From: Celeribacter baekdonensis
GTDB lineage: Bacteria; Pseudomonadota; Alphaproteobacteria; Rhodobacterales; Rhodobacteraceae
Length of the DNA: 64,000 nucleotides
NCBI RefSeq assembly: GCF_900102315.1
Contig: NZ_FNBL01000005.1
Location: 1 to 64,000, forward strand
Direction: 5' to 3'
Part shown: piece by piece, positions 1 to 17,377 of the stretch
Numbering within the stretch: the stretch's first letter is position 1
Layout: each line of letters opens with the position of its first letter
Notes under the pieces: model-generated
Database searches by the model: none
The model's input: the letters and a program-made list of their open reading frames with translations, nothing else
What the model was told of the DNA's origin: nothing
Position numbers and translations under genes: made by a program

Positions 1-1112
1 ATGCCGCGATGACCCATAAATACGTGTTCGATTACCACGACGGCGACGTGTTTTGGTGCACCGCCGATGTCGGTTGGGTGACGGGGCACAGCTACATCGT
101 CTACGGCCCGCTGGCCAATGGCGCGACCACGGTGATGTTCGAGGGCGTGCCCTCCTACCCCGACGCCGGCCGGTTCTGGGCCGTGTGCGAAAAGCACAAG
201 GTCAACCAATTCTACACCGCCCCCACAGCCCTGCGCTCGCTCATGGGGCAAGGCAACGAATGGGTTGAAAAATATGACCTTTCCTCGCTCAAACTGTTGG
301 GCACGGTCGGCGAACCGATCAACCCGGAGGCGTGGAATTGGTACAATGAGGTCGTCGGCCGCGGCACTTGCCCGATCGTCGACACCTGGTGGCAAACCGA
401 AACCGGCGGGCATCTTTTGACACCGCTGCCGGGCGCGATCCCGACCAAACCGGGCTCTGCGACCGTGCCATTCTTTGGCGTGCAGCCGGTGATTTTGGAC
501 CCGGCCACGGGCGAAGAATTGACCGAAACCGCGACCGAGGGCGTGCTGTGCATCAAAGACAGCTGGCCCGGCCAAATGCGCACCGTCTGGGGCGATCACG
601 AGCGGTTCCAGGAGACCTATTTCCAGCAATACAAAGGCTATTATTTCTCCGGCGACGGCTGTCGGCGCGACGCAGACGGCTATTACTGGATCACCGGCCG
701 CGTCGATGACGTGATCAACGTCTCCGGCCACCGCATGGGCACCGCCGAGGTCGAAAGCGCGCTGGTCGCCCACGCCCAGGTCGCCGAAGCCGCCGTCGTC
801 GGCTATCCGCACGACCTCAAGGGCCAGGGCATCTACGCCTATGTCACGCTCATGAACGATGTCGAACCGACCGACGCGCTGCGCAAAGAGTTGGAAAAAT
901 GGGTCCGCACAGAAATTGGCCCGATCGCCAAACCGGACTTCATCCAATGGGCCCCCGGCCTGCCCAAAACCCGATCCGGCAAAATCATGCGCCGCATCCT
1001 GCGCAAAATCGCCGAAAACGACACTGGCAGCCTGGGCGACATCTCAACCCTCGCCGAACCCGCCGTCGTCGAGGAATTGATCAGGAATTCGTTGTATCAA
1101 AAAACTGCGTGA
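1..1112 (+). CDS. acs: Acetyl-CoA synthetase, C-terminal part (5' end outside window)
   Basis: Activates acetate to acetyl-CoA through acetyl-AMP in the cytoplasm. The frame is open from base 3 and about 370 residues are present, against roughly 650 for the family, so the N-terminal part lies upstream of the window. Visible ANL-superfamily motifs are [10 protein letters not shown] (adenylate binding), [20 protein letters not shown] (the A8 hinge region) and the C-terminal [11 protein letters not shown], which holds the lysine normally acetylated to switch the enzyme off. The symporter genes downstream on the same strand fit a role in taking up and activating acetate. Identity is clear; only the start is missing. 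Confidence 0.96.
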
Positions 1113-1319: not shown

Positions 1320-1577
1320 ATGGCGGACAACTCAGAAAACAATGCCTACTGGGCCGCGAACAAGCGGATCATCGTCATCTCGCTGGTGATTTGGTTCATC
1401 TGCTCCTTTGGCTTTGGCATCCTGCTGCGCCCGATGCTTGCGGGCATCAAGATCGGCGGCACGGATCTTGGCTTTTGGTTTGCACAACAGGGCTCGATTC
1501 TCGTGTTCCTGGTGCTCATTTTTACCTACGCGATAAAAATGAACAAACTCGACAAAGAACACGGCGTCGACGAATAA
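1320..1577 (+). CDS. DUF4212 small subunit of sodium/solute symporter
   Basis: An 85-residue membrane protein with two hydrophobic segments, about residues 11-33 and 48-70, the second ending in the basic sequence KMNKLDK. This matches the DUF4212 (putative solute:sodium symporter small subunit) family, which is found next to a large SSS-family subunit. The ATG at 1320 was chosen because GGGAGGA at 1308-1314 sits at ribosome-binding distance; a start at 1284 would add 12 residues with a poorer site. The large subunit begins 12 bases after the stop. The substrate is inferred to be acetate or another short organic acid from the neighbouring acs. Confidence 0.9.
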   Translation: MADNSENNAYWAANKRIIVISLVIWFICSFGFGILLRPMLAGIKIGGTDLGFWFAQQGSILVFLVLIFTYAIKMNKLDKEHGVDE

Positions 1578-1589
1578 GGAGCGCATGGA

Positions 1590-3317
1590 ATGGACCAGTT
1601 TACCCTCAACTTGATCGTTGTGGGCGCGACTTTTGCGCTCTACATCGGTATCGCGATCTGGGCCCGTGCGGGTTCCACATCTGAATTTTATGCGGCTGGC
1701 CGGGGGGTTCACCCTGTGCTCAACGGCATGGCCACCGGCGCGGACTGGATGTCTGCTGCATCGTTCATCTCGATGGCCGGCATCATCTCCTTTGGCGGCT
1801 ACAACACGTCTGCTTACCTCATGGGGTGGACCGGCGGCTATGTGTTGCTCGCCATGTTGCTTGCCCCTTACCTGCGCAAGTTTGGCAAATTCACGGTTCC
1901 GGAATTTATCGGTGACCGTTTCTATAGCCAAACGGCACGCACCGTGGCTGTGATCTGCTTGATCACTGCTTCTCTGACCTATGTGATCGGTCAGATGACC
2001 GGCGTGGGCGTGGCCTTCTCCCGCTTCCTCGAAGTGGAAAACACCACCGGCCTGTTGATCGGTGCAGCCATCGTGTTCTTCTATGCGGTTATCGGCGGCA
2101 TGAAGGGTATCACCTACACGCAGGTGGCACAGTATGTCGTGTTGATCATCGCCTACACCATCCCGGCGATCTTCATCTCGCTGCAACTCACCGGCAACCC
2201 GATCCCGCCGCTGGGCCTGTTCTCGGATGCAAAATCCACTGGCCTGCCGTTGTTGGAAACGCTGAACGGCATGTTGAAAGATTTGGGCTTTACCGAATAC
2301 ACCAAACAGACCGACACAACGCTCAACATGTTCCTCTTCACCATGTCTTTGATGATCGGGACCGCGGGTCTGCCGCATGTGATCGTGCGTTTCTTCACCG
2401 TACCGAAAGTGTCTGATGCACGCTCCTCTGCCGGTTGGGCTTTGGTGTTCATCGCGCTTTTGTACCTCACCGCTCCGGCTGTGGGTGCGATGGCCCGCGT
2501 CAACTTGATCGACACAGTCTACCCGAATGGCACGACCGAGGCCCCGCTTGCCTATGAAGCACGCCCGGATTGGGTCAAAAACTGGGAATTGACCGGCCTT
2601 TTGGGCTTTGACGACAAAAACGGTGACGGCCTGATCGACTATGTGGCCGACAAAGACGCAAATGAGTTCACCGTGAACAACGACATCATCACGCTTGCGA
2701 ACCCGGAAATCGCCAACCTGCCGGGTTGGGTGATTGCGCTGGTGGCCGCCGGTGGTCTTGCCGCCGCTCTGTCCACCGCTGCGGGTCTTTTGATGGCGAT
2801 CGCATCGGCTGTGTCGCACGATCTCATCAAGTCGCAGATCAACCCAGCCATTTCCGAGAAGGGCGAACTTTTGGCCGCTCGGGTCGCAATGGCTGTGGCG
2901 ATCGCTGTGGCAACCTATCTGGGCATGAACCCTCCGGGCTTCGCGGCGCAAACGGTGGCTTTGGCCTTTGGTTTGGCAGCGGCGTCGATCTTCCCGGCCT
3001 TGATGATGGGCATCTTCTCGAAGCGCATCAACAACAAGGGCGCGGTTGCGGGCATGATCACCGGTTTGGTTGTGACCATCGTCTACATCTTCTTGCACAA
3101 AGGCTGGTTCTTCGTGGCCTCCACGGCGTCCTTCTCTGATGCTGAGCCGATGATCTTGTCGATCAAATCGACCTCCTTCGGGGCCGTCGGTGCAGTCCTC
3201 AACTTTGCGGTTGCTTACATTGTCTCGAACGCAACAGACGAGCCGCCGGTTGAGATTCAAGAACTGGTCGAAAGCATCCGCGTCCCGCGCGGTGCTGGCC
3301 AGGCGGTCGATCACTAA
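1590..3317 (+). CDS. Sodium:solute symporter family protein, large subunit (VC_2705-type)
   Basis: A 575-residue transporter of the SSS (SLC5) family with about 13 hydrophobic segments. The SSS region EFYAAGRGVHPVLNGMATGADWMSAASF is characteristic (split here by position: residues about 33-60). It is translationally close to the DUF4212 gene and has a good AAGGAG site 8 bases upstream. Between hydrophobic segments near residues 310-380 lies a hydrophilic loop containing DDKNGDGLID, a calcium-loop-like sequence. The family resembles ActP-type acetate permeases, and with acs upstream acetate or a related monocarboxylate is the likely substrate, but the sequence does not prove this. Confidence 0.9.
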   Translation: MDQFTLNLIVVGATFALYIGIAIWARAGSTSEFYAAGRGVHPVLNGMATGADWMSAASFISMAGIISFGGYNTSAYLMGWTGGYVLLAMLLAPYLRKFGKFTVPEFIGDRFYSQTARTVAVICLITASLTYVIGQMTGVGVAFSRFLEVENTTGLLIGAAIVFFYAVIGGMKGITYTQVAQYVVLIIAYTIPAIFISLQLTGNPIPPLGLFSDAKSTGLPLLETLNGMLKDLGFTEYTKQTDTTLNMFLFTMSLMIGTAGLPHVIVRFFTVPKVSDARSSAGWALVFIALLYLTAPAVGAMARVNLIDTVYPNGTTEAPLAYEARPDWVKNWELTGLLGFDDKNGDGLIDYVADKDANEFTVNNDIITLANPEIANLPGWVIALVAAGGLAAALSTAAGLLMAIASAVSHDLIKSQINPAISEKGELLAARVAMAVAIAVATYLGMNPPGFAAQTVALAFGLAAASIFPALMMGIFSKRINNKGAVAGMITGLVVTIVYIFLHKGWFFVASTASFSDAEPMILSIKSTSFGAVGAVLNFAVAYIVSNATDEPPVEIQELVESIRVPRGAGQAVDH

Positions 3318-3423
3318 GCCTGTCGGTTTCGGGCTGGCCTCAGGGCTGGCCCGTCGCCATAGTACAGGGGCGCGGGGGCCAGTGGCTTTCGCGCCTCTTT
3401 CAATTTTACTTTGGACAGTCGCG

Positions 3424-5241
3424 ATGGAAACCACCGCAAAGATCATCAACTTTCTCCACACCACCCACCCTTACGATGTTTTGCCCGAAAGCGAATTGGC
3501 GGAGCTGTCCACCTCCTTTTCCCGCAAAAAATTTAACGAAGGCGATGTGATCTATGCCCATGGCGACTTGCTTGAGGGGCTGTATCTGATCAAGGAAGGT
3601 GCGGTTGAGATCATCGACATCAACGGCGCACAGGTCTCCCTGTTGCAAAAATCGAACCATTTTGGCGAACGCGGCTTGTTGCGCGACGGGCATGCGGCGA
3701 CGACGGCCACGGCGGCCTCCGAGTGCACGGTTTTGGTGCTCACACCGGAGGCGTTCAAAACCGAAGTGGCCGCGAACCCGGCCTTTGCCCGCTATTTCAA
3801 CCGCGGCCAAGCCCGCCCCAAAGTCGCCACGGGGCTGATGACCCAACATGTCTCCGACCTGATGGCCCATGCGCCTGTGACCTGCTCGGAGACCACCACA
3901 ATCTCCGATTGCGCGCGGATGATGCGCGATCACATGGTCTCCTCTGTGGCGGTGACCGAGGGCACGCGCCTGACTGGTCTGGTGACTGTGCGCGATATGA
4001 CCAACAAAGTTTTGGCCGAAAGCCTTGATACCACCCTGCCCGTTTCCACTATCATGGCGCACGATCCGATCACCTTGGACCCCGGCGCACTTGGCACTGA
4101 TGTCATCCATGTCATGTTGGAAAATCACATCGGCCACCTGCCGATTGTCGAGGGCGGCACATTGGTCGGCATGGTCACCCAAACCGACATCACGCGGTTC
4201 TTTGGTTCGTCGCAAACGCAAATGGTGTTTGATCTCTCAAACGCAAAAACCATCGCCGATATGGCTGCGGTCACGGCCCGCTTGCCCGAATTTCTCATGC
4301 AACTTGTCGGCGCACATCTGGCGCATGATGTGGTGACACGAAAGATCACCGACATCGCCGATATCGTCACCCGGCGCCTGTTGAAAATGGCTGAGGATGA
4401 ATTTGGCCCCGCTCCCGTGCCCTATCTGTGGGCCGCCTGTGGCTCGCAAGGGCGGCGTGAACAGACCGGCGTGTCGGATCAGGACAACTGTTTGATCATT
4501 GATAATGCCGCGACAGAGGCCGATATGGCCTATTTCCGCAAGCTGGCAAAATTCACCTGCGATGGGCTCAATGCCTGCGGCTATGTCTATTGCCCCGGTG
4601 ACATGATGGCGATGACGGAGCGGTGGTGTCAAAAACTGTCGGTCTGGGAAGGGTATTTCAACAAATGGATCAGCGCGCCCGACACTGAAGCGCAAATGTT
4701 GGCCTCCGTCATGTATGACCTGCGACCGATTGCGGGCGAACACCGCCTCTTCACACCGCTGCAGGACACGGCTTTGAAAGCCGCCGCGAAGAACTCGATC
4801 TTTGTTGCCCATATGATCGCCAATTCGCTCAAACACACCCCGCCCTTGGGGCTGCTTCGCGGCTTTGCCACGATCAAATCCGGCGAGCATCGCAACGCTT
4901 TGGACATGAAACACAACGGCGTTGTGCCGATTGTTGATCTGGGCCGGGTCTATGCGCTTCAGGGTACATTCACCGCCGTAAACAGCCGTGCGCGCATTGA
5001 GGCGGCGATTGAGGCCCACGTGATTTCAGAAAGCGGCGGCAAGGATTTGCTCGCCGCCTATGACACAATCGCCACCGCTCGGTTGGAACATCAGGCCGCA
5101 CAGGTACGCGATGGCACCCCGCCCGATAATTTCATGAGCCCCTCGGCCCTTCCGGCCTTTGAGCGCTCGCATTTGCGCGATGCTTTCGTCATCGTGCGCA
5201 CCATGCAATCCTCGCTCGGCTCGTCCGCCGCGCGCAGTTGA
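3424..5241 (+). CDS. DUF294 regulator: cNMP-binding, CBS pair and nucleotidyltransferase-like domains
   Basis: A 605-residue soluble protein. Domains in order: cyclic-nucleotide-binding beta-barrel (about 15-125, with GLYLIKEGAVEII), two CBS motifs (about 140-265, sensors of adenine nucleotides), then DUF294 with GSQGRREQTGVSDQDNCLII near residue 340, which has the GS-x-GR...D-x-D pattern of GlnD-like nucleotidyltransferases, and a C-terminal DUF294_C helical region. The start at 3424 aligns with the domain start; a longer frame from 3190 overlaps the symporter gene out of frame and is unlikely. Gene order with symporter and acs suggests it controls acetate uptake or use by a nucleotide signal or by nucleotidylation. 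No target is known from the sequence. Confidence 0.88.
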   Translation: METTAKIINFLHTTHPYDVLPESELAELSTSFSRKKFNEGDVIYAHGDLLEGLYLIKEGAVEIIDINGAQVSLLQKSNHFGERGLLRDGHAATTATAASECTVLVLTPEAFKTEVAANPAFARYFNRGQARPKVATGLMTQHVSDLMAHAPVTCSETTTISDCARMMRDHMVSSVAVTEGTRLTGLVTVRDMTNKVLAESLDTTLPVSTIMAHDPITLDPGALGTDVIHVMLENHIGHLPIVEGGTLVGMVTQTDITRFFGSSQTQMVFDLSNAKTIADMAAVTARLPEFLMQLVGAHLAHDVVTRKITDIADIVTRRLLKMAEDEFGPAPVPYLWAACGSQGRREQTGVSDQDNCLIIDNAATEADMAYFRKLAKFTCDGLNACGYVYCPGDMMAMTERWCQKLSVWEGYFNKWISAPDTEAQMLASVMYDLRPIAGEHRLFTPLQDTALKAAAKNSIFVAHMIANSLKHTPPLGLLRGFATIKSGEHRNALDMKHNGVVPIVDLGRVYALQGTFTAVNSRARIEAAIEAHVISESGGKDLLAAYDTIATARLEHQAAQVRDGTPPDNFMSPSALPAFERSHLRDAFVIVRTMQSSLGSSAARS

Positions 5242-5269: not shown

Positions 5270-5785
5270 ATGCTTCTCGAATTCATCGCCACCATCACCG
5301 CCGGCGTCGGCGCTGCCGGATTTATCCTTGGTCTACAAAAACTCACCCGGATCAAATTCCCGAAATGGGCCATGCCCGCCGCCGCAGGGGCCGCGATGTT
5401 GGCCTTTGCGATCTGGAGCGATTATTCGTGGTACACCCGTGCGTTGGATGGCATCGGCGAAGGCAAAGTCGTCGCCACCACGATTGAGAAAAGCCAAGTC
5501 TGGCGACCTTGGACCTATCTCGTTCCGGTCACCACCCGCTTTATCGCCCTCGACAAAGATGGGGCAACTGTTGAGGACGGCACGGTTTTGACCGACATGT
5601 ATCTGATGGCGCGGCGCGGCGATGCGGCCATCGTCCCCACCGCCTTTGATTGCATCCTAGGCCGTCGTGCTGATTTGGTTGGTCTTAAAAAAGGCCCGAT
5701 CAAAGAGATGCTGGCACAGGCCGATTGGTACGCCATGCAAAGCGACAATCCGATCCTGCGCACGGCCTGCGATGCGTTGAGATAA
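5270..5785 (+). CDS. Small membrane-anchored protein of unknown function
   Basis: 171 residues. The first half holds two hydrophobic segments (about 3-22 and 33-50), and the remainder is a soluble domain of about 120 residues with a conserved-looking core PWTYLVPVTTRFIALD and a single cysteine in AFDCILGRR. Not recognised as a named family. It starts 28 bases after the DUF294 stop behind a clear AAGAAGGGA site and precedes the response regulator by 25 bases, so it probably belongs to the same transcript. The cytoplasmic or periplasmic side of the domain cannot be settled by eye. Confidence 0.75.
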   Translation: MLLEFIATITAGVGAAGFILGLQKLTRIKFPKWAMPAAAGAAMLAFAIWSDYSWYTRALDGIGEGKVVATTIEKSQVWRPWTYLVPVTTRFIALDKDGATVEDGTVLTDMYLMARRGDAAIVPTAFDCILGRRADLVGLKKGPIKEMLAQADWYAMQSDNPILRTACDALR

Positions 5786-5810: not shown

Positions 5811-6200
5811 ATGCAAGGCAAACCGCGCATTCTTTTGGTGGAAGACGAGGACAATATCGCCATTGCCATCACGCTTTTGCTGTCGCGCGAAGGCTATGAC
5901 ATCCTGCGTGTCGCGGACGGGTCCCAAGCCATCCCCAACATCCGCGCGCAACAGCCCGATCTGGTGATTTTGGATGTCACATTGCCGGGAAAATCCGGCT
6001 ATGAGGTCTGCCAAACCATGCGATTGACCCACGATCTGACCGCGATCCCGGTGTTGATGATGTCCGCGCGCGCCTCACAGGCCGAGCAACGCAAGGGGCT
6101 TGCCATGGGCGCCAACGCGTTTTTGACCAAACCCTTTGCGATGGATGATCTGCGGTCCCGCGTGGCCGAGCTGATCACGGGAGATCGAGATGAAAATTGA
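5811..6200 (+). CDS. Stand-alone response regulator receiver
   Basis: 129 residues forming one CheY-like receiver with no output domain. Visible active-site parts are the acidic pair in LVEDED (residues about 8-13), the phospho-acceptor aspartate in LVILDVTLPGKSG (about 53), the MMSARAS switch region and the lysine in FLTKPF (about 107). A strong GGAGGGGAG ribosome site precedes it. Its last 11 bases overlap the next gene, a sensor-like exonuclease fusion, so the two are translationally coupled. The partner kinase is not obvious: the neighbour's kinase-like region looks inactive. Confidence 0.92.
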   Translation: MQGKPRILLVEDEDNIAIAITLLLSREGYDILRVADGSQAIPNIRAQQPDLVILDVTLPGKSGYEVCQTMRLTHDLTAIPVLMMSARASQAEQRKGLAMGANAFLTKPFAMDDLRSRVAELITGDRDEN

Positions 6201-8298
6201 ACATTGGTCGCTGCGGCTCCGGGTCTTTCTGTTCTTCGCTGGCCTTGCGGGCGGCGCGATCATGGCGGTCGTGGCGGGGCTTTATCTGGGATTTTCTCGC
6301 CTGCATGTGCCTGAGGCCCGCGATGGTTTTGTCTTTGCCGGTGCGATTGCCAGCTTTGCCATCCTCGCCATGGTGGTTTGGATTTGGCTGATGTTTGACG
6401 ACAACGTCGCCAAGCCAATCCAACGTCTGGCCGGCGGCATGTTGGCGCGGGCGCACGCCGATGTCGATGAGGCGCTGAATGAAAAAACCGCGCGCTACCT
6501 GGGCGATCTTGCTCCCGCAGCACATGCTTTGACCGAAAACCTCGTCAGCACCCGCAACAAACTGGCCGAGACCGTGGCGATGGAAACCACCCGTTTGGTC
6601 GACGAAAAAGAGCGCCTCTCCACCCTCTCCGCCGAGATGCCACATGGCGTGGTCTTGCTGTCCGGCCTGCATAAAATCGCCTTTTACAACGGTGCCGCCG
6701 CCAATCTTTTGTCCGCCGACCATGCACCGGGGCTGGACCATGAAATCTTTGACTTTCTGCGCCCCGCACCGATCCGGTCCGCCTATGCCCGGCTTTGCGC
6801 AGGCGAAGGTGGCGAGGGGCATGTCCTTCCCCTGACTGTGGCCACGCGCCATGGCGGGCAAATCCTGTCGGCCCGGATGCGGTTGATGCATGCGCCCAAT
6901 GAGGGCGACGCAACGCCGCCCTATGTGTTAAGTTTGGATGATGTGACCGACGACCTCGCGATCCATGCCAAACGCGAAAAGCTGCTGTCGCGGATGTTTG
7001 ACCGCCTGCGCCCATCCATGGCCTCTTTGCAGACCACTTTGGCGGCACGTGAGGCGGATGACACGCTGCGCAATGATCCCCGTTTGAACACTGCACTGGT
7101 CAACGAAATGCAGGTCCTGACCACGGCCATCGCCACGTTTGACGCCGAATATGAGGCAACAAAGGCCGATTGGTGGCCGATGGCCTCGGTGCGTGGCTCC
7201 GAACTTTGCGATGCTTTGCGCGCGCAATTGGCGCAAGGCGACACCGCCCTGACCGCGGATGTGGTCGAACCGCTCGCCCTCACCTTGGACGCGGTTCAGA
7301 TCATCACCCTGATCGCCCACATCGCTCGTTTGGTGACCCAAGACGGCGGCCGGGCGTTGTCGTTTTTGATTTCCCGCGAAGAGGACGGCGGCGCGATGTT
7401 GGCGCTGGGGTGGTCGGGTGCGCCTTTGTCCGTTGATCGGCTGGAAACATGGCTGACCCAGCCGCTTGACGTGGGTTTGGCTGATATGACCGGGCGTGAC
7501 ATCCTTGCGACTCATGGCACCGATATCTGGCCGGAATTTGGCCGCGCCTCCCGTGCCGTCCTCAAACTGCCGATCCGCTCCGCGCGCCCTGTGCGACGCG
7601 CCCCGGTCGATGGGCGGCGCACGGTGAGCTATGACTTTGATCTATTAGCGCATCGACCATCGAAAGAGGTGATGGAAACCCCCCTCTCTCACCTGACCTA
7701 TGTGGTGTTTGACACGGAAACCACCGGGCTTTTGCCCTCGCAAGGCGACGAGATATGTCAAATCGCGGCGCTGCGCGTGGTCAATGGCAAGGTCCGCAAT
7801 ACGGAAACGCTCGACGCGCTGGTCAATCCCGGACGCCCCATCCCCGCCTCGGCCACCGAAGTTCATCACATCACCAATGCCATGGTCAAAGATGCGCCCC
7901 CGATTGATGTGGTCGGGCGGCAACTTCACAGCTTTGCCCGCGGTGCCGTTTTGGTCGCCCATAACGCACCGTTTGATTTGGAATTTCTACGCCGCCACGA
8001 GGCTGGAATTGGTGCGACGTTCAACAACCCGGTGCTCGATACCGTGCTGCTCTCCGCCATTGTCTTTGGTCAATCGCAAGAACACACGCTCGATGCAATC
8101 TCCGCCCGCCTCGGTGTCAAAATCCCACCCGAGGCACGCCATACCGCCATGGGCGATACGGTGGCGACCGCGCAAGTGTTTATCAAAATGCTGCGCATGG
8201 CCGAGGAACGCGGGATTGTGACCTTTGGCGATGCTTTGACGGAAATGCGCAAACACAAGCGCCTGTTACAAGATGCCAATCAGCCCGAAAACGCGTGA
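6190..8298 (+). CDS. Membrane protein with degenerate kinase-like module fused to DEDDh 3'-5' exonuclease
   Basis: 702 residues. Two transmembrane segments (about 10-36 and 48-72) are followed by a HAMP/coiled-coil-like linker, a PAS-like region (about 150-260), then a stretch resembling a histidine kinase: DRLRPSMASLQTTL (about 270) aligns with an H-box of the HDLRTPLAS type but has no histidine at the expected place, and the ATPase-like region ends in ATHGTDIWPEF...LKLPI without clear N or DxGxG boxes. From about 500 onward is a DnaQ-type exonuclease: FDTETTG (507), NAPFDLEF and HTAMGDTVAT give the D-E-D-D-H set. It overlaps the receiver gene. DNA or nucleotide substrate and membrane-linked signalling are inferred. 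Confidence 0.87.
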   Translation: MKIEHWSLRLRVFLFFAGLAGGAIMAVVAGLYLGFSRLHVPEARDGFVFAGAIASFAILAMVVWIWLMFDDNVAKPIQRLAGGMLARAHADVDEALNEKTARYLGDLAPAAHALTENLVSTRNKLAETVAMETTRLVDEKERLSTLSAEMPHGVVLLSGLHKIAFYNGAAANLLSADHAPGLDHEIFDFLRPAPIRSAYARLCAGEGGEGHVLPLTVATRHGGQILSARMRLMHAPNEGDATPPYVLSLDDVTDDLAIHAKREKLLSRMFDRLRPSMASLQTTLAAREADDTLRNDPRLNTALVNEMQVLTTAIATFDAEYEATKADWWPMASVRGSELCDALRAQLAQGDTALTADVVEPLALTLDAVQIITLIAHIARLVTQDGGRALSFLISREEDGGAMLALGWSGAPLSVDRLETWLTQPLDVGLADMTGRDILATHGTDIWPEFGRASRAVLKLPIRSARPVRRAPVDGRRTVSYDFDLLAHRPSKEVMETPLSHLTYVVFDTETTGLLPSQGDEICQIAALRVVNGKVRNTETLDALVNPGRPIPASATEVHHITNAMVKDAPPIDVVGRQLHSFARGAVLVAHNAPFDLEFLRRHEAGIGATFNNPVLDTVLLSAIVFGQSQEHTLDAISARLGVKIPPEARHTAMGDTVATAQVFIKMLRMAEERGIVTFGDALTEMRKHKRLLQDANQPENA

Positions 8299-8929: not shown

Positions 8930-10099
8930 CTATGGCTCACGAAAGGCCTCGCGTGATTTGTAGAGCGGTTTCAGCAGATATTGCAAAAACGTCTTTGACC
9001 CGGTGTGTAATTCGACCTGTGCGCGCATACCGGGGCGGATCTCGATTTGTTGTTGCCGCTCGGTCAGACTGCTTAGATCAACCGTCGCCGTCACCCGGTA
9101 ATAAGGCTCCGCTTTCGGGTCGCGCTCGTCTTTAAATGTGTCCGCCGACACCACCTGAACCTTACCCTTGAGAGACCCAAAAATCGTGTAATCATAAGCA
9201 GATAACTTGATCGTCGCGTCTTGACCGGGTTGCACATGGGCAATGTCTTCGGGGCGCACACGCGCTTCGACAAACAGTTCTTCGTCCACCGGAATGATCT
9301 GAACCAACTCCTCACCGGGCCGGATCACGCCACCGATGGTCGTCACCATCAGGCTGTTTACGATCCCCCGCATCGGCGCGACAATCACTGTGCGTCCGAG
9401 TTGATCATTGGCCAAGGTCAGCGCCTGTTTCACTGAGGCCAGTTCTTTAAGCGTGTCGGAATAGTCTTCGGCACGCTGCAATTCCGCCTGTGTGACGATC
9501 TCGTTGTATTTGAGTTGCGCGTCAGAATGCGATTTGCGCGCGCGGGTCACTTCGATCAGCGACACCACGTTTTTCGTCAGCATATCCTCCATCAAGGACC
9601 GCTCGGTCTCCGCCTGTTTCAGGACCGCCATCGCGCCATCTTTGCGGGCCAAATAATCGCCAACCCGCGCTTTCAAAAGCGCCTTTTCCGAGGCCAGAAC
9701 CGTCGCAGCCCGTGCAGCAAGATCATCAGCCACGACAAACGCATCATTGCCTTCAAGCTCCGCCTCAAGCCGCAAACGCCGCACCTCTAAGGCGTCGATT
9801 TTTTCCTGAAGATCATCGACGGAGGTGCGAAACTCCGTGCCCTGCAATTTGGCCAATACCTGACCCTGTTCGACCTCCTGGCCCTCATGCACCAAGAGCT
9901 CGGACAAGATGCCGCCCTCAAGGTTCTGCACAATCTGCGGGCGCGATGAGGAAATCATTTCACCATCCGAACGCACAATCTCATCAACCCGCGCAATCGC
10001 CGCCCAGAGCAAAAAAATCACAATCACAACGGCCGAAATTCGAATGATCCAACCCGGACGATCCATGTCCTTGTCGAGCATGTCGTCGAACGTGGCCAT
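8930..10099 (-). CDS. Type I secretion periplasmic adaptor, HlyD family
   Basis: 389 residues: short cytoplasmic N-terminus, one transmembrane helix (about 17-40), a lipoyl/biotinyl-like half (DGEMISSSRPQIVQNLEGGIL), a long coiled-coil hairpin (about 85-240), then the beta-barrel with GIVNSLMVTTIGGVIRPGEELVQIIP and a second membrane-proximal region. It bridges the inner-membrane ABC exporter and the outer-membrane TolC-like protein. Its ATG shares one base with the stop of the ABC gene (TGATG), indicating translational coupling. Length and motifs are normal for the PrtE/LapC type. Confidence 0.95.
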   Translation of the reverse strand: MATFDDMLDKDMDRPGWIIRISAVVIVIFLLWAAIARVDEIVRSDGEMISSSRPQIVQNLEGGILSELLVHEGQEVEQGQVLAKLQGTEFRTSVDDLQEKIDALEVRRLRLEAELEGNDAFVVADDLAARAATVLASEKALLKARVGDYLARKDGAMAVLKQAETERSLMEDMLTKNVVSLIEVTRARKSHSDAQLKYNEIVTQAELQRAEDYSDTLKELASVKQALTLANDQLGRTVIVAPMRGIVNSLMVTTIGGVIRPGEELVQIIPVDEELFVEARVRPEDIAHVQPGQDATIKLSAYDYTIFGSLKGKVQVVSADTFKDERDPKAEPYYRVTATVDLSSLTERQQQIEIRPGMRAQVELHTGSKTFLQYLLKPLYKSREAFREP

Positions 10100-12789
10100 C
10101 AGCGCGCTCTCGCTTTTTCGAGATGCGCCATGACCTGTGCACGCGGTCCGTCAACCACCAGTCGCCCGTCTTTAAACACCATCGCCCGATCTGCGAGGGC
10201 AACGATAGGCAAGCGGTGCGTGGCAACGACGACGGTGCGGCCCGAAAGCCAGTCTGTGAGCCGCGCCACAAGCGCGGTTTCAAGCGTCTGATCCAAGGCC
10301 GCGGTCGGTTCATCCAACAGACAGACAGACGGGTTTTGCAGCCACATCCGTGCCCAGCCAATCGACTGTCTCTGTCCCACCGAAAGGCCTTCACCACCAT
10401 CGCGAATTTCAAGGTCCAGCCCGCGGTGATGCCCGCGCACAAAAGCGCCAAGCCCGGCAAAATCCAAGGCGGCAAGCAGGCGATCATCATCACGCTCCAT
10501 ACCGCCCAAGTTCAGGTTGTCACGCAGTGTCCCGGCAAACAGCCGCACGTCTTGGCCAAGGTAACCGACAGAGCGACGAATGTCGCGCGGATCAATTTGC
10601 GACATCTCCGCACCGTCCAACAAAATGCGCCCTTGCGTCGGGGCATAAAGACCGGCGAGAAGTTTCAGGAAGGTGCTTTTACCTGATCCATTGGCACCTA
10701 ATACTGCAATTTTCTGCCCCGCTTTGATATCGAGTCCCGGCAGATCAAGCGTCGGTGCACCCTCTGTATCATAGCGGAACTGCGCCTCACGCAGCACGAA
10801 TGCGCCGTTGATCTGTGGACGACGGAGAAAATTGCGATCCCCGCCATTGTCCTGCGGCGCGTCCGCGATGGCGTCCAACCCATCGAGCGCCGTTTTGACA
10901 TTGGTCCACCGCGCCATTGTCGTCGAAAGCTGGGTCAGCGGCGCAAGCGTACGGGAGGTCAGGATGCCGGTCGCGATAATGGTCCCAACGGTAAATTCAC
11001 CGGCAAAAACCAAATAGGTTCCGGCGACCACGGCCAAAACATAGGTCAATTGCTGCACGCCTTGGGACCAAAAGGTCAGCATGCCGGAAAGTTTGCGCTG
11101 TTCCGACGATTTCGCCGCAGACAACAGGTTCAACTCATCCCAAATCCGCCGCACCCGATCTTCGCCGCGTTGGGTTTTGATCGTGTCGAGTTCAAACACC
11201 GCCTCATGTAAAAGCCGCGTCGATTTGGCCGATGCCCCTTGGGTCTCTTGGGTCAGGCGCATCATCCGTTTTTGGAACAGATAGCCGGGCACCACCATGA
11301 TGATCGCGCCCGCGACCAGAATCCAAACAATCGGGCCAGCAATCGAGGCCACGAGACCAAAGAACAAAAAGATAAACGGAATGTCAGCGACCGATCCAAT
11401 GGTCGACGCGGTGAAAAATTCGCGCACCGAACCGAATTCACGCATGGCGGAAAACAGGCCCGTCGGCGTTGTCGGCCGCGCATCAGACCGCATCCCCAGA
11501 AGCCGCTCCATCAACATCGACTGAACCCGCATTTCAATTTGACGCCCGGCCCCATCCATCAAACGCGAGCGCGCGAGTTTCAAAACCGCTTCTAACGCGA
11601 TGGCCAAAACTGCGCCCAACGCCAGCACCCAAAGGGTGGCTTGGGATTGATGCGGGATCACCCGGTCATAGACCTGAAGCGAAAACAGAGCGACGGCCAC
11701 GGCCAACATATTGGCCACAAGCGAGCCCAATGCGATCTCGCCAATCTGCCGTTTGAACGCCCCGAATTGACCCCAAAACCAATGCTGTTTTGACAAAAGC
11801 GGCACATGAGTGGCAGTCAATGTGTCCAAAGTTTTCCCGGCGCGTACGATGGTCCCGGTGAAGAACGGTGCAAATTCATAAAGCGGCACTTCGGCAACCT
11901 GATCGGTGCCGGTGTGATCAAAAACGGTCAAAACCTCGCCCTTTTGCGACCACACAAGGACGATATGCCCGGACGACATATAGGCCAATGCGGGCCAGGC
12001 CTTGGGCGCGATCGCGGCCAGATGGGTGACTTCGGCGGAGAGGCCCGTCAGGCCAATCGCACGCGCCATGGCGGCGGGGGCGACATCTTCGCCAGTTTGA
12101 TCCGCAAAACTTTCGATCAGGTCAGAGATCATCGCACGTTGACCAAAACGCGCGGCAAAGGTCGCGACCAATTCGGCACGTTGCAGGAATTTGCGCGAAA
12201 ACACCGCTTGGTCCGGGCGCGGGGTCGGTTCCGGCTGCGGGATCTCGACCTGTTGCTGAGGCTGCGGAAAAATATCAGCAGGTGCAACTGGGGCTGTGAC
12301 CTGCGCCTCTTGGTGCTGTGTGACCGTTTCGTCCTGCGTCATTTGCGGTGCAGGCGGCACGTCACGGGCCGCTTGGCGCGCCTTGGCTTCGGCTTTCACC
12401 TCCGCCGCATCGCGTTTGGGTTTGCGCGCGGCTTCTGCGGCTTGGCGGGCCTTTTCAACGCGAAGCGCCTTGGCCTGTTCACGCGCCTCTCGTTCCTCAA
12501 CGCGCAGCTTTTCCGCCGCCTCTTCGCGCAACCGTGCCTCGCGCGCCGTGTCGGCCACCTTGCGCCGCACGGCCTCGGTCGCTGCGCGTTTCTTTTCCAC
12601 CATGGGATCAACAACTGGCGCAGGTTTATGAGCCGCAGGTGCCAGTTTCGTTTTCAGAGCACCCCGGCCTTGAGAGCCCAGATGAACGGTCAAAGGGGCC
12701 TTTGGAGCCTTCGGACGATTAGACACATCTTCGGGGGTCTCAGGCTTGGCCGAGGTGACAGTAAAAGCGAGCTTTGGTGCTTTCCTCAT
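10099..12789 (-). CDS. Type I secretion ABC exporter with long charged N-terminal extension
   Basis: 896 residues, about 170-200 longer than LapB-type exporters. Residues about 60-145 are Ala/Glu/Arg/Lys-rich and predicted helical, followed by a Pro/Gln-rich linker to about 195. Then comes a C39-like domain (about 215-330) without the catalytic cysteine (a non-cleaving substrate-docking CLD), a six-helix membrane domain (about 345-620) and the nucleotide-binding domain with Walker A GANGSGKST (about 698), signature LSVGQRQS (about 800, usual LSGGQ changed to LSVGQ) and Walker B VCLLDEPT. It powers export of the adjacent Ig-like surface protein. ATGA overlap with the TolC-like gene. Confidence 0.95.
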   Translation of the reverse strand: MRKAPKLAFTVTSAKPETPEDVSNRPKAPKAPLTVHLGSQGRGALKTKLAPAAHKPAPVVDPMVEKKRAATEAVRRKVADTAREARLREEAAEKLRVEEREAREQAKALRVEKARQAAEAARKPKRDAAEVKAEAKARQAARDVPPAPQMTQDETVTQHQEAQVTAPVAPADIFPQPQQQVEIPQPEPTPRPDQAVFSRKFLQRAELVATFAARFGQRAMISDLIESFADQTGEDVAPAAMARAIGLTGLSAEVTHLAAIAPKAWPALAYMSSGHIVLVWSQKGEVLTVFDHTGTDQVAEVPLYEFAPFFTGTIVRAGKTLDTLTATHVPLLSKQHWFWGQFGAFKRQIGEIALGSLVANMLAVAVALFSLQVYDRVIPHQSQATLWVLALGAVLAIALEAVLKLARSRLMDGAGRQIEMRVQSMLMERLLGMRSDARPTTPTGLFSAMREFGSVREFFTASTIGSVADIPFIFLFFGLVASIAGPIVWILVAGAIIMVVPGYLFQKRMMRLTQETQGASAKSTRLLHEAVFELDTIKTQRGEDRVRRIWDELNLLSAAKSSEQRKLSGMLTFWSQGVQQLTYVLAVVAGTYLVFAGEFTVGTIIATGILTSRTLAPLTQLSTTMARWTNVKTALDGLDAIADAPQDNGGDRNFLRRPQINGAFVLREAQFRYDTEGAPTLDLPGLDIKAGQKIAVLGANGSGKSTFLKLLAGLYAPTQGRILLDGAEMSQIDPRDIRRSVGYLGQDVRLFAGTLRDNLNLGGMERDDDRLLAALDFAGLGAFVRGHHRGLDLEIRDGGEGLSVGQRQSIGWARMWLQNPSVCLLDEPTAALDQTLETALVARLTDWLSGRTVVVATHRLPIVALADRAMVFKDGRLVVDGPRAQVMAHLEKARAR

Positions 12790-14141
12790 ATGTCCACCCC
12801 ATCGGCCAAAGCCCCTGACACGCGCGCGATCTCAAGCTCGGTCAAGGCAATTTCATATTTTAAATCAATGTGTTTCAACTCATCGCGGATCATTTGCTCA
12901 TAGACGTTCAACACGTCCATGACGCTTTTTTGCCCGGCTTCGAATTGATCTTGGAAAATGCGGTAATTGGCGCGGGTTTGTTCGACCAAATCGGCGGCAT
13001 CGCGTTCTTGACGGCGCAGGGCCGAGAGGTGGCTATCCAGGCGCGCACGTTTGCGCGCGGAGGTTTCGCGCGCCTTTTCGACCTGTGCGCTGGCGGCCAA
13101 TTCGCGCGCCCGACTGGCCTCCATTTCCGCGCCCGTACCAAGCCCCAAACCCGCCCCATCATAGGCAGCCCCTGTGCTGTTTTTCTGGCCCAAAAGGGTC
13201 GAAGCGGACAGCGTTGGCAGCATCGCGGCGCGTTGTGCTTTGGCCTCGGCGATGGTGCGTTTGGCCTCGGCTTCGGCACGCAAAACGTCGAGCGTCGTCA
13301 CAGACCCAGTCGGCAGGGAAATTCCCATGGCCTGATCAAGAACCGGGAGCTTGGCCCCCCCCGTCAGCGTGTCCAACTCCGCCCATGCACTGTCTTCGGC
13401 CTCACGGTGGGTGCTGGTTTCATGCTGCATCTCGGAGAGGGTCGAGCGCACGACACGTTGATCCGACAGGCTCGACGCGCCGCCTTTGACCCGCTCGGTG
13501 ACAACCCGATTGAACTCCTGCATCCGGCCCAAGCCACGCTCGGCCATGCCTGATTTCTCATGGGCTTCAGCGGCGGTGATATAAAGCGTAAGCCCTTCGT
13601 AAAGCCGGTCATTGACGTCTTGCGACAGTGCCACAGCGGAAACTTCGACATCGGCGGCGGCAAATTCGCGCTCGGCCTTGTGTTTGCCGTTGTCATAGAG
13701 GGTAACGTCCACCAACAGGCCCGCGACCACTTCGCCCAAAGAATTGAGCGTGATCGACGGGCCGATGGTCGGCATCCAATTGGTGGAGCGGGCAATCGCG
13801 CGCATTTTGGAGGCGCGCAATTCGGCCTCGGCCACGCCCGACGAGGTGGCAAGCACAGCGGTTGCGACCTCGTCATAGGCGGAGCCGGGCGTTAACACCG
13901 AACGGCGCGCGATCAGATCAGAAATCAAAGGCGAGGCTTCACCGGAATTGGCGGCAGAGAGGCTTGGGGTTCCGCGGTCTTTGGCTTCGGCAACCGTTCC
14001 GGCTTTCGCGCCTGCACTGCCCTTGAAAAGGGCCACAGGCTTGACGTCAAACAGATTTGATACCCCTGGCGAACCGGCGGTGCAGCCAGTCACAAACACT
14101 GCCGCCCCCAATAGCGCACTCAATTTACCCAAAGACTTCAT
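12786..14141 (-). CDS. TolC-family outer membrane lipoprotein of type I secretion
   Basis: 451 residues from the ATG at 14141. This start is preferred over one at 14222 because it puts a lipoprotein signal at the N-terminus (GAAVFVTGC, lipobox cysteine about residue 20) and a GGGGGAG stretch lies upstream. The mature protein has two repeats of long amphipathic coiled-coil helices separated by strand regions typical of outer-membrane efflux proteins, for example SGMAERGLGRMQEFNRVVTE and QFEAGQKSVMDVLNVYEQM. It forms the outer-membrane exit duct for the ABC-HlyD exporter. ATGA overlap with the ABC gene. The surface protein stops 83 bases upstream of this start. Confidence 0.92.
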   Translation of the reverse strand: MKSLGKLSALLGAAVFVTGCTAGSPGVSNLFDVKPVALFKGSAGAKAGTVAEAKDRGTPSLSAANSGEASPLISDLIARRSVLTPGSAYDEVATAVLATSSGVAEAELRASKMRAIARSTNWMPTIGPSITLNSLGEVVAGLLVDVTLYDNGKHKAEREFAAADVEVSAVALSQDVNDRLYEGLTLYITAAEAHEKSGMAERGLGRMQEFNRVVTERVKGGASSLSDQRVVRSTLSEMQHETSTHREAEDSAWAELDTLTGGAKLPVLDQAMGISLPTGSVTTLDVLRAEAEAKRTIAEAKAQRAAMLPTLSASTLLGQKNSTGAAYDGAGLGLGTGAEMEASRARELAASAQVEKARETSARKRARLDSHLSALRRQERDAADLVEQTRANYRIFQDQFEAGQKSVMDVLNVYEQMIRDELKHIDLKYEIALTELEIARVSGALADGVDI

Positions 14142-14224
14142 AACACCCGTCGCGCTCCCCCGCCTCCGCGCTTTCTTTACGAGTGCGGGCACAGAAACGC
14201 ACCCGCACCCCATTGTTTTCACCG

Positions 14225-17200
14225 TTACGGCAGGACCACTTCGATGTGGTGATCAATCATCACTTGATCATCGCCAAGCGTGTAGATGTCGTAGGTCGCG
14301 CCATCAATCGTTGTGGTGTCCCCCGTCAGCGCCCCACCTTCAAGCACCACACGATCGTCTGCGCCACCATGAATGGTCAAAACGCCATCTTCCCCCACGA
14401 TCCGGTCCAAATCAGCCGTAGACAGCGTGACTTCGCCGCCGTTGACGAATTGAAGATCAATCGCGCCAAGATCGAATTGATCAAGCCCGGCGTTGTCGAT
14501 ATCCACCTCGAAATAGGCCCCATCGGGACGTTCGTTTGTGGTGTCAAGCACGAGCAATGTATCGGACTGGTTGCCCGCGACATCTTCGAACGCGATGACA
14601 ATCTGGTCGCCGTTCGACACATGGCTGCCAAAGTTGAGCAAGGTCTGCGACCCAAGGTCATAATCGGTGTGCGAAATCTCGGTCGAGGAGCCGCTTTCAT
14701 CAAGAGAATAGACCGACACATCCTCCCCCATCTCACTGACGGAAATCGAATGCACCCCATCCGTCCCGCGTGTCACGGTTTCGATGAAGGGCGACGAAAT
14801 CACCGTGTCGATGGTGACCTGCGCCGTTTCGGTGCGCGTGTTGCCAGCGGCATCAGTGGCCTCAATCTGTACATTGGCGGCATAGGTTCCTTCGGGAATT
14901 TCACCAGGCGCGTAGCTCACGCTCCAATTGCCCGCCGCATCGACAGAGGCCAGATGGCGCATGCCATTGAGGGTCACATAGACGGTCGATCCCGGCTCGA
15001 CGAACCCGGTCAGAGTGGCACCAGAGTGCACCTCGGCGAGGTTGATAAACATGTCGCCGCTGGCATCACCGTTCAGGCCCAAAGAGGTGACCAGAGTGTC
15101 GTAGGTGATGGTTTCCGACAGCGACGCGGTGTTGCCCGCCGGGTCTGTCGCGTTGATGATGACGTTGGCGGAGCCTTCGCCGGAGGGCAGCGCAGAGGCC
15201 GGAATGGTCGAGGACCAATTGCCCGCGCCATCGACGGCGGCCATGTAATTTTGGCCCTGGAAGGACAACACAACAGTGGACCCCACCTCAACCGTTCCCG
15301 CAAGTTGTACGCCCGACTGGGCCTCGAGGCCGTTGACCACACCGTCTGACCCGCCTTGTTGGGCGGTCTCGGCGAAGTTGCTGACAAACGTGTCGACTTC
15401 AACGGCGGTTTGCACAGTTTTCGTGTTGCCTGCCGCATCGGAAATCGTCGCCGACGCACCGGTGTCATATTCGCCCGGAGTGACGTCGGAGGCGGCAAAG
15501 AAGGCCGCAAACGTCCCGGCATTGGTCGATGTGACCGAGTGGGTCACGCCGCCCAAAGTGACGGTGATCGTGTGGTTCGGAGTGGCCGTGCCGCTGACCC
15601 AGACCCCATCGGAGGCCTCGACCGCGTTGATCACATTGTCGCCCTCAATCGGGTTGGTGGACAGCGCGATGTCGCCCGCAACCGTATCGACATGAACCGT
15701 GCTTGTGGTGGTCGCGGTGTTGCCCGCGGCATCGGTGGCAACGGCCGTCAGCGTGGTGTCATATTCACCGCCCGCCAAACTGCCCGCTGCATAGGTCGCG
15801 GTCCAATTCCCTGCCCCATCGGCCACGGTGGTCACGGAGACACCCGAAAGCGTGACAACAACGGTCGCGCCCGGCTCAGCTGTGCCAGCAAAGCTCATGG
15901 CCTGCTGGCTTTCAGAAAGGTTGATGGTTTCGTCGCCGCCCGAATGTCCCGCGTTGATCGCCACACCGGTTTCGGTGTCGATCGAGAAGGTGCCCGTCGC
16001 AGAGGCGGTATTGCCCGCCGCATCGGTGGAAACGGCGGTGACTTCGGCGCTATAGCTGCCCTGCGGCAAGGAGCCGCTTTCATAAGTCACGGACCATGTG
16101 CCATCTTCGCCAACGGTCGCGCTGCGCGAGACGCCCGCCACGGTGACAGTGACCGATGCGCCCGCTTCACCCAGACCTGTCAAGACGACACCGCCGTTCA
16201 TTTCGGACAGGTTGACCATGCCATCCCCGCCCGCGGCTCCGGCATTCACCGACAACGACGCCTCAAGGTCAATTGCGATCTCATGGGTGTAAGTCGCAGC
16301 ATTGCCATAAATATCCGTCACGGTTGCTGTGACGGTACTGTCATAGGTGCCAGCAGGCAGTTGAGTGCCATCAAAGGTGACGGACCATGTGCCATCTGCA
16401 CCCACCACGGTCTCGATGGACTGACCTTCAAGCTCGACCACAACGGTCGCCCCCGCCTCGGATTGACCCGAAACAGGAATACCGTCGCTTGCCTCAGAAA
16501 TATTGACGATATCGTCGCCCTCGACGGTGTCAAAGCTGAGATCTTCGGGGGCTGTGTCGACCAAAAGCGTGTCGGTGACCGTAGTCGAATTGCCTGCCTC
16601 ATCGGTGGCCACGACGGTCACGTCAGTGGTATATTCACCGGTCTCAATCGCCTCGCTGTCAAAGACCGCCGTCCAAGTGCCGTCTTCACCGACCGTGACG
16701 GTTTCCGTGGTGTCATTGATCGTGACCTCCACAACGGTCCCCGGCTCACCGCCACCCGTGATCTCAAAGCTGCCACTGTCGTAAATCTCACCGTTCACAT
16801 AGTCGCCAACGCTTTCAACGCCGGTCACGATAGAAACATCGGGGGCGGTCGTGTCGCCTTCGCCTTCGCCACCACCATTACCAGTGCCGCCGCCATTGCC
16901 GCCGTCTATCAAAATGACGCCAGCCGCCGCCGCTGCTGCGGCTCCTGCGCCACCAAGACCAAGCCCTGCAAACGCCAGAGGCGCCACAACCGGCTCGATA
17001 CGCTCCAGATCGAGAAAAGCAAGCTGATCGTATTCGCTCCACTTCCCCGTCAAGTCGATGTCCTGATAGGAGGCGACGAGATCGCCCTGACTTTCATCCA
17101 CGAAATCGACTTTGGTCATCAAGCCGCGTTCAGAGAGAAAGAGATCGTGATCGCCCCCCTCAAAGAAGCCCTCAAGAACAATAGACTTGCCCCCGATCAA

Positions 17201-17377
17201 CTCGACAACAAGGTTTCCGCCTTCACGAGAATACCCCGAAACTGCGGCAGCCGACATGTTCAAAGAGATATCTTCGACGCCCTGAACCGAGATCGCTTCA
17301 ACATTTTCGGAGAGGGAGAGAGTGCCCGTGTCTACATTGCCCGCGAGATCGCGGATTGAATACTGAATGCCCAACAT
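14225..17377 (-). CDS. Type I secreted surface protein with BapA-like prefix and seven Ig-like repeats
   Basis: 1050 residues, strongly acidic. Residues about 1-125 resemble the BapA prefix-like domain (VVELIGGKSIVLEGFFEGG), followed by an Ala/Gly-rich linker (about 130-175) that may act as the retention or spacer segment. Seven tandem Ig-like repeats of 96-98 residues (about 193-873) follow, each with GEAGASVTVT-, GTWSV- and TDAAGNT-like signatures. The C-terminal 175 residues end in IHGGADDRVVLEG...TYDIYTLGDDQVMIDHHIEV, like uncleaved type I secretion targets. No signal peptide and almost no cysteine. Probably a biofilm or adhesion protein exported by the next three genes. The start codon has only a weak ribosome site. 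Confidence 0.9.
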   Translation of the reverse strand: MLGIQYSIRDLAGNVDTGTLSLSENVEAISVQGVEDISLNMSAAAVSGYSREGGNLVVELIGGKSIVLEGFFEGGDHDLFLSERGLMTKVDFVDESQGDLVASYQDIDLTGKWSEYDQLAFLDLERIEPVVAPLAFAGLGLGGAGAAAAAAAGVILIDGGNGGGTGNGGGEGEGDTTAPDVSIVTGVESVGDYVNGEIYDSGSFEITGGGEPGTVVEVTINDTTETVTVGEDGTWTAVFDSEAIETGEYTTDVTVVATDEAGNSTTVTDTLLVDTAPEDLSFDTVEGDDIVNISEASDGIPVSGQSEAGATVVVELEGQSIETVVGADGTWSVTFDGTQLPAGTYDSTVTATVTDIYGNAATYTHEIAIDLEASLSVNAGAAGGDGMVNLSEMNGGVVLTGLGEAGASVTVTVAGVSRSATVGEDGTWSVTYESGSLPQGSYSAEVTAVSTDAAGNTASATGTFSIDTETGVAINAGHSGGDETINLSESQQAMSFAGTAEPGATVVVTLSGVSVTTVADGAGNWTATYAAGSLAGGEYDTTLTAVATDAAGNTATTTSTVHVDTVAGDIALSTNPIEGDNVINAVEASDGVWVSGTATPNHTITVTLGGVTHSVTSTNAGTFAAFFAASDVTPGEYDTGASATISDAAGNTKTVQTAVEVDTFVSNFAETAQQGGSDGVVNGLEAQSGVQLAGTVEVGSTVVLSFQGQNYMAAVDGAGNWSSTIPASALPSGEGSANVIINATDPAGNTASLSETITYDTLVTSLGLNGDASGDMFINLAEVHSGATLTGFVEPGSTVYVTLNGMRHLASVDAAGNWSVSYAPGEIPEGTYAANVQIEATDAAGNTRTETAQVTIDTVISSPFIETVTRGTDGVHSISVSEMGEDVSVYSLDESGSSTEISHTDYDLGSQTLLNFGSHVSNGDQIVIAFEDVAGNQSDTLLVLDTTNERPDGAYFEVDIDNAGLDQFDLGAIDLQFVNGGEVTLSTADLDRIVGEDGVLTIHGGADDRVVLEGGALTGDTTTIDGATYDIYTLGDDQVMIDHHIEVVLP
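14760..16801 (-). repeat. Seven tandem ~290-bp Ig-like repeat units
   Basis: Within the surface-protein gene, seven in-frame units of 96-98 codons run head to tail. Each begins with a VN-SEA-like sequence, passes through an EAGATV-like strand and a DGTW or AGNW turn, and ends with TDAAGNT followed by an IDT-like linker. Units are clearly related but already diverged at DNA level, so this is old duplication rather than recent amplification. Boundaries are approximate, taken from the protein register. Confidence 0.85.

Follow-up and report, generated by a model that had tools for sequence, protein, structure and literature searches.

A pseudokinase-exonuclease fusion and its lone receiver

The window analysed here (64,000 nucleotides of Celeribacter baekdonensis, contig NZ_FNBL01000005.1, positions 1 to 64,000) encodes on its plus strand a 702-amino-acid fusion of a predicted membrane pseudo-histidine-kinase and a DEDDh exonuclease (6190..8298), recognised from its open reading frame (ORF), profile searches, AlphaFold2 and Foldseek. 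The ORF of a stand-alone receiver of 129 amino acids (5811..6200, plus strand) precedes the fusion ORF and overlaps it by 11 bases. Among the named genomes found, the closest protein was that of C. baekdonensis B30 (98% identity over 702 amino acids).

The fusion begins with a pair of helices (residues 8-90; 6211..6459, plus strand), read as a membrane anchor from hydrophobicity judged by eye and from the AlphaFold2 model of the full protein, where the helices span residues 8-38 and 41-90. Downstream on the same strand follow a PAS fold (residues about 150-252; 6637..6945), supported by Pfam PAS matches in distant homologs, secondary structure and Foldseek; a pseudo-DHp hairpin (residues 253-327; 6946..7170), placed by profile alignment and AlphaFold2, in which Asp271 (7000-7002) takes the phospho-histidine position; a degenerate, ATPase-like CA domain (residues 332-467; 7183..7590), in which Trp408 takes the position of the G1 Asp; and a DEDDh 3'-5' exonuclease domain (residues 503-673; 7696..8208), with an RNase_T match and all five catalytic residues.

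In the single protein, RNase_T was the sole Pfam match above cut-off (residues 505-664, E 2e-34), and HisKA, HATPase_c and PAS gave no Pfam match at E<=1, so that the kinase reading could not be confirmed in this way. When 34 long homologs (30-79% identity to the window protein) were aligned with it, the profile of residues 92-492 from these 35 long sequences matched PDB 4i5s (VicK; E 5e-18, over positions 26-359 of the 399 in the profile) and 3a0r (E 2.5e-12). The DHp-CA part of the profile (residues 256-475) matched ZraS at 1e-5 and the pseudokinase DivL at 1.5e-5. Three distant homologs (L032, L033, L037) passed the Pfam PAS cut-off, and at E<=0.1 HisKA was detected in 4/35 long homologs (best 0.00023, below cut-off) and HATPase_c in 1/35.

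The AlphaFold2 model of residues 92-492 showed a helix, a PAS fold, a two-helix hairpin and a CA-type domain (mean pLDDT 83.5, pTM 0.56). When searched with Foldseek, it retrieved PAS-DHp-CA kinases at the top by E-value (WalK model, 1.2e-16; 4i5s, 5.6e-14; DivL 4q20, 1.3e-8), with low query-normalised TM-scores over the whole piece (0.22-0.38 among the rows listed), because domain order matched better than domain arrangement. For the full protein (pLDDT 84.2, pTM 0.42), the pTM makes the mutual arrangement of the domains unreliable. Overall, the DHp and CA folds of a histidine kinase were recognised by profile search, AlphaFold2 and Foldseek alike. The original prediction had proposed the order membrane anchor, PAS, DHp, ATPase-like domain and exonuclease, together with the 11-base overlap; both were confirmed, with a kinase-like fold lying before residue 500, RNase_T found directly and the kinase domains appearing once homolog profiles replaced the single protein.

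The receiver matched Response_reg (E 2e-26) at residues 7-118 and carried no output domain, which makes it a single-domain response regulator. Its acidic pair, Asp55, Ser85 and Lys107 were identified by alignment. Asp55 and Lys107 were each conserved in 48 of 49 aligned receivers, a set that includes that of the window and some from loci outside the locus counts given below.

Lost kinase residues and intact nuclease residues

Residues were counted over 46 long rows, i.e. proteins with DHp and CA, and over 42 rows of short forms, which have neither, and intermediate forms (41 plus P0001; P0001 was counted in both sets). The split gene of locus L141 was left out of these counts and retained in the locus counts. 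Residues 269-281 of the fusion read MFDRLRPSMASLQ. In the acceptor column, where the window protein has Asp271, no His was found in any of the 46 long rows (D22/E11/A9/S2/V1/T1); L068 and L077 possessed a His five residues past the column, none at the column itself. The G1-box Asp column was Trp in 45/46 long rows and column 376 was Asn in only one, while in the profile alignment the N-box Asn and G1 Asp of DivL aligned with other residues (R-like and W). Neither the phospho-accepting H-box His nor the ATP-binding pair of N-box Asn and G1-box Asp was thus present across the family, as the original prediction had suspected when it saw no histidine at the H-box position and no recognisable ATPase boxes; the conserved His, N box and G1 box that it had named as refuting evidence did not appear in the alignment. 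With the acceptor His and the ATP-binding Asn and Asp gone, the fusion is classed as a pseudokinase. Other positions of the same region were strongly conserved in the long rows, namely Arg274 (45/46), Gly410 (45/46), His442 (46/46) and Trp447 (46/46).

The five DEDDh residues (D508, E510, D596, H651, D656) were invariant in all 46 long and all 42 short or intermediate rows. The exonuclease domain matched the PolC exonuclease 2p1j (E 6.5e-22) and E. coli epsilon 2gui (7e-12), and residues and fold together place it among DEDDh (RNase_T) exonucleases. Of the 25 NCBIfam families listed, the broad model TIGR00573 alone exceeded its cut-off, with 94.3 bits against 71.5; every more specific model stayed far below its own. 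Judged by its residues, the protein is a dead kinase joined to an exonuclease with an intact catalytic set.

Joint retention and loss of the receiver and the DHp-CA module

Among 120 Rhodobacteraceae genomes, 24, counting that of the window, possessed a long form (split in one of them and divergent in another), four an intermediate form and 35 a short form; in the remaining 57 the best match was 4.6e-29 (G067) or weaker than 1e-21. The loci compared were those of this survey, two further short forms and 18 named loci. L079 (identical to L068), L163 (weak exonuclease match), and L164 and L165 (no match) were excluded, L098 (the divergent G023 locus) is reported separately from the 39 long Rhodobacteraceae loci, and L147, at a contig end, was not counted for the receiver. 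Seven of the 39 are from Celeribacter and hence not independent.

A lone receiver lay just upstream of the fusion in all 39 long loci. It was absent from all 36 judgeable short loci and all four intermediate loci, where no receiver-profile match occurred anywhere in the fetched stretches. The intermediates had kept a CA-like stretch and lost most of the DHp hairpin. The short forms lacked the DHp-CA module and the receiver, yet kept the membrane/PAS part between them; as this retained part separates the receiver from the DHp, a single deletion cannot explain the joint loss, and two events are needed each time. At the divergent G023 locus the receiver was directly upstream of the fusion. In G022 (L141, 156-2218) the fusion gene was found in two overlapping ORFs, with the receiver still there. 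Outside Rhodobacteraceae, six genomes spread over five families of the class also had long forms; there the receiver was upstream in 5/6 long loci and, at the sixth (L119, G198), about 5 kb off, beside a kinase and on the other strand. Gaps of -183 to -501 bases at L120, L122 and L123 are probably due to over-long ORF starts.

Relocation of the receiver was considered and rejected: in 22/26 receiver-less genomes the best receiver match adjoined a symporter-like kinase, and that gene is also present in receiver-bearing genomes. The best match was not beside the kinase in G083, G053, G080 and G030. Since a true receiver can score as low as 61 bits (G117), so divergent are some of them, relocation is made unlikely by this comparison, and no more than that.

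Tree and correlated divergence

A FastTree tree of 79 rows was built from the DUF294 protein, the symporter (both encoded upstream, see below) and the exonuclease domain, without L070, L098 and L147; open forks remain. The long/not-long state changed at least five times on this tree, whichever way the changes ran, and the receiver state was identical in every row. As the two traits agreed in all 79 rows, one vector served both in an independent-pairs sign test; the result was p 0.0625, five changes being too few for 0.05 to be attainable.

Receiver distances (37 rows) were corrected for DUF294 and symporter distances by partial correlation. They correlated with those of DHp (0.61) and CA (0.59), followed by PAS (0.46), the membrane part (0.42) and the exonuclease (0.05). 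Without three receivers that look impaired for phosphorylation (L072, L074 and L075, treated below), the values were 0.55 and 0.58 for DHp and CA, 0.02 for PAS, 0.04 for the membrane part and -0.10 for the exonuclease. The DHp and CA correlations were not reached in 2000 permutations, although Mantel permutations leave some shared ancestry in. For the 171-amino-acid protein encoded between DUF294 and the receiver, used as control gene (P171), the correlation with the membrane part was 0.38/0.28. DHp and CA were also the fastest-diverging parts of the fusion (median distances 1.1 and 1.0). Divergence of the receiver thus parallels that of the pseudokinase to a greater degree than does the divergence of a neighbour gene, and some of the signal is common to the row.

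The pattern of presence and absence, the intermediates with most of the DHp lost and the correlated divergence together make a coupling between receiver and pseudo-DHp well supported at the level of sequence comparison. The original prediction had guessed at a switch by the receiver or by a nucleotide pocket; the former has gained this support, and the latter is not supported, the N-box Asn and G1 Asp being replaced across the family.

Gene row around the fusion

The acetate-uptake setting proposed earlier was borne out by domain matches and locus counts. All on the plus strand, the row upstream of the receiver comprised the C-terminal part of an acetate--CoA ligase gene (acs; 9..1112; AMP-binding and AMP-binding_C), cut by the window start, with TIGR02188 scoring 642.6 bits on the remaining portion, short of the cut-off set for the full-length protein; a DUF4212 protein gene (sodium/substrate symporter small subunit; 1320..1577; PF13937, E 5.7e-34; TIGR03647, 112 bits); a VC_2705-family sodium/solute symporter gene (1590..3317; TIGR03648, 829.5 bits); a gene for a nucleotidyltransferase-like protein with the Pfam order cNMP-CBS-DUF294-DUF294_C and an uncertain start codon (3415..5241); and a gene for a conserved 171-amino-acid protein (5270..5785). 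The latter had no Pfam or NCBIfam match at E<=1 and was recognised by its conserved place in the row, which it kept at 38/39 long, 36/37 short and 4/4 intermediate loci.

Upstream and on the same strand at the 39 long loci were the receiver (39), DUF294 (39), the symporter (39), the 171-amino-acid protein (38), DUF4212 (38) and acs (32, a count affected by flanks too short at some loci). The 37 short loci had no receiver, and DUF294, the symporter and the 171-amino-acid protein at 36 each, the odd one being L147; the four intermediate loci had no receiver, and DUF294 and the symporter at all four. Whether the fusion always neighbours these genes, a question raised with the original prediction, can be answered: in Rhodobacteraceae, at every locus with flanks long enough to judge, the fusion in its long or short form belongs to the acs/DUF4212/symporter/DUF294 row; in other families the neighbours differ. 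The row of G023 is rearranged by an inserted kinase gene.

Elsewhere in the window, positions 52137-53252 hold an acetate kinase gene, and ORFs on the minus strand at 8930-17377 resemble, by eye, a type I secretion system and a very long repetitive surface protein. At L045/L130, with a DUF294 gene in the stretch, the fusion partner of an exonuclease of the same group was an EamA transporter domain and not a pseudokinase, which may represent membrane tethering by an unrelated anchor.

Candidate phosphodonors

In several distant lineages a histidine kinase gene shared the cluster. In G023, kinase, receiver and fusion followed one another in tandem, overlapping by 4 bases, and acs, symporter and DUF294 belonged to the same cluster; in G351, G250 and G170 the tandem order was receiver, fusion, kinase; and in G198 kinase and receiver were nearby on the opposite strand. 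All five kinases passed the Pfam HisKA and HATPase_c cut-offs. The H-box His was present in 7/7 inspected kinases, with simple patterns for the N box in 6/7 and for the G1 box in 3/7, the G1 pattern being an incomplete test. Symporter matches in the N-terminal half of the G351, G250, G170 and G198 kinases were weak and below curated cut-offs; the G023 kinase had no symporter match and was 52% identical to that of G250 over nearly its full length. In view of these weak matches, the cluster kinases are tentatively labelled CrbS-like.

The window genome possessed a canonical histidine kinase with its own lone receiver (G000:C34:200219-203672, L166), and no other receiver-profile match occurred in the 10-kb stretch covered there. 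In G114 the symporter-like kinase was in two pieces, and in G091 it was partial. Two candidates were rejected as discriminating partners, as neither differed between receiver-bearing and receiver-less genomes: the presence of a symporter-like kinase (24/24 vs 23/26) and acetyl phosphate, judged by acetate kinase (21/24 vs 21/26). The symporter-like kinase is the most likely donor to the lone receiver, a proposal that is not proven.

Proposed mechanism and alternative explanations

The best explanation, to which we give a little better than an even chance, is that the pseudokinase relic docks the lone receiver, whose phosphorylation state controls the exonuclease, the donor being a separate kinase. 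The membrane-anchored relic would have kept DHp and CA for docking and signal transmission: the receiver encoded just upstream would bind the pseudo-DHp and, depending on whether it is phosphorylated, would modify either the activity or the access of the C-terminal DEDDh exonuclease. Phosphorylation of the receiver would probably come from a separate canonical sensor kinase, most likely the symporter-like (SLC5/CrbS-like) kinase sharing the cluster in several distant lineages. Information would then run backwards through the kinase fold, as from DivK to DivL, with the nuclease as output, in an acs/symporter/DUF294 acetate locus. This direction of signalling, with the nuclease as output, is the most economical reading; the substrate of the nuclease and an acetate or pyruvate signal are presumed. 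More tentative, and in our estimate rather doubtful, is a complete non-transcriptional acetate/pyruvate pathway running from symporter-like kinase through lone receiver and membrane pseudokinase to the DEDDh nuclease, in which the phospho-signal would control the nuclease directly, and nuclease and DUF294 nucleotidyltransferase would together act on either RNA or a nucleotide tag.

Several observations weigh against control by a phosphorylated receiver with a separate donor. The symporter-like kinase occurs in every receiver-bearing genome but also in most receiver-less ones, and in the 12 Rhodobacteraceae kinase loci examined it is found away from the fusion, next to a receiver of its own (122-175 amino acids in 11/12; within a 595-amino-acid ORF in G024). 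Correlations were also obtained between the P171 control and CA (0.35/0.30), DHp (0.23/0.16) or the receiver (0.32/0.24), and over all 37 rows the receiver correlates with the membrane part and PAS too. At L125 and L126, in other families, a receiver of the same profile lies beyond DUF294 and the exonuclease protein lacks DHp-CA, and many Rhodobacteraceae manage without receiver and DHp-CA altogether. For the likely P. putida counterpart genes, growth on 20 mM acetate was reported to be without defect (PMC9927547). Finally, the L072 receiver has neither Asp55 nor Lys107, and those of L074 and L075 lack the second acidic residue, and all three still stand beside a long fusion. Their retention indicates that phosphorylation is not needed everywhere, and would favour binding over phosphorylation at these loci.

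These three receivers lend themselves to another explanation, a constitutive structural complex of the receiver with the pseudo-DHp that serves as scaffold or dimer stabiliser and in which phosphorylation has no role. Joint loss and correlated divergence require binding only, and so fit it; a pure scaffold would not need the near-universal Asp55 and Lys107, nor does it account for the tandem kinase genes of several lineages, and we regard it as unlikely. Switching by acetyl phosphate in place of a kinase, so that the receiver reports acetate flux, would suit the acetate locus and the acetate kinase gene within the same window. As acetate kinase, the only gene compared in this respect, does not track the receiver, and as distant lineages have a kinase gene inside the cluster, such switching appears improbable. 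Slightly less credible still is that DHp-CA is a functionless remnant decaying towards the short form, with the receiver lost by drift: short forms are common (37 loci), intermediates exist (4 loci) and DHp and CA diverge fastest within the protein, but Arg274, Trp408, Gly410, His442 and Trp447 are each kept in 45 or 46 of the 46 long rows, and receiver and DHp-CA co-diverge and vanish together despite the sequence retained between them.

If control of the exonuclease through the docked receiver is correct, reverse signalling via a dead histidine kinase would be a more general device than a DivL oddity, here wired to a nuclease and not to another kinase, and the turnover of nucleic acids in acetate metabolism would be under direct control of a phospho-switch. 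With short, intermediate and long forms all occurring in nature, a set for testing this is already at hand.

Comparison with known systems

In literature searches, judged in part from titles and abstract openings and with most subscription papers outside reach, no report was found of a kinase-exonuclease fusion or of a link between DUF294, an exonuclease and acetate. The exonuclease domain resembles PolC/epsilon-type DEDDh exonucleases in its domain match and all five catalytic residues, and differs from them in being joined to a membrane pseudokinase and in passing the cut-off of none of the more specific NCBIfam models listed.

In P. putida, an operon of an RNase_T exonuclease and a CBS-domain protein (pp_0353/pp_0354) is linked to the acetate system MxtR/ErdR, and pp_0353 is important for pyruvate use (PMC9927547). 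The shared features are the RNase_T exonuclease beside a CBS-domain protein gene and the acetate link, the counterpart being likened by description and not by sequence; a pseudokinase or receiver is not mentioned in the accessible text of that paper. The present system may bear on the unexplained pyruvate phenotype of pp_0353. Histidine kinases of the CrbS/RpuS type (SLC5-STAC) carry an SLC5 symporter domain, serve acetate and pyruvate use, and are described as acting via transcriptional response regulators (PMC9100948, PMC5715377). The likeness of the cluster kinases to this type consists of the weak N-terminal symporter matches in G351, G250, G170 and G198.

The closest parallel is DivL, the Caulobacter pseudokinase that binds DivK~P (PMC4211667). 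Like DivL, the fusion is an alphaproteobacterial pseudo-histidine-kinase with a non-His acceptor residue, a retained PAS and DHp-CA, and a putative response regulator partner; moreover, in alphaproteobacteria that have no DivK, DivL is frequently without its DHp-CA (PMC4211667), the same pattern of DHp-CA loss accompanying loss of the receiver. DivL acts on the CckA-ChpT-CtrA phosphorelay and is said to retain the other kinase motifs (PMC4211667), whereas the fusion has lost the N and G1 residues too, carries its own exonuclease and has an adjoining receiver gene. A DivL ortholog would have Tyr or Ala in the acceptor position and intact N and G boxes, and would act on the CckA relay (PMC4211667); here Asp and Glu are the commonest residues in that position and Ala accounts for 9/46. 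Co-occurrence of a lone receiver with DHp-CA, as expected of DivL-like receiver reading, was found in Rhodobacteraceae, and L125 and L126 do not fit it. By analogy, the fusion would work like DivL and is not classed as DivL.

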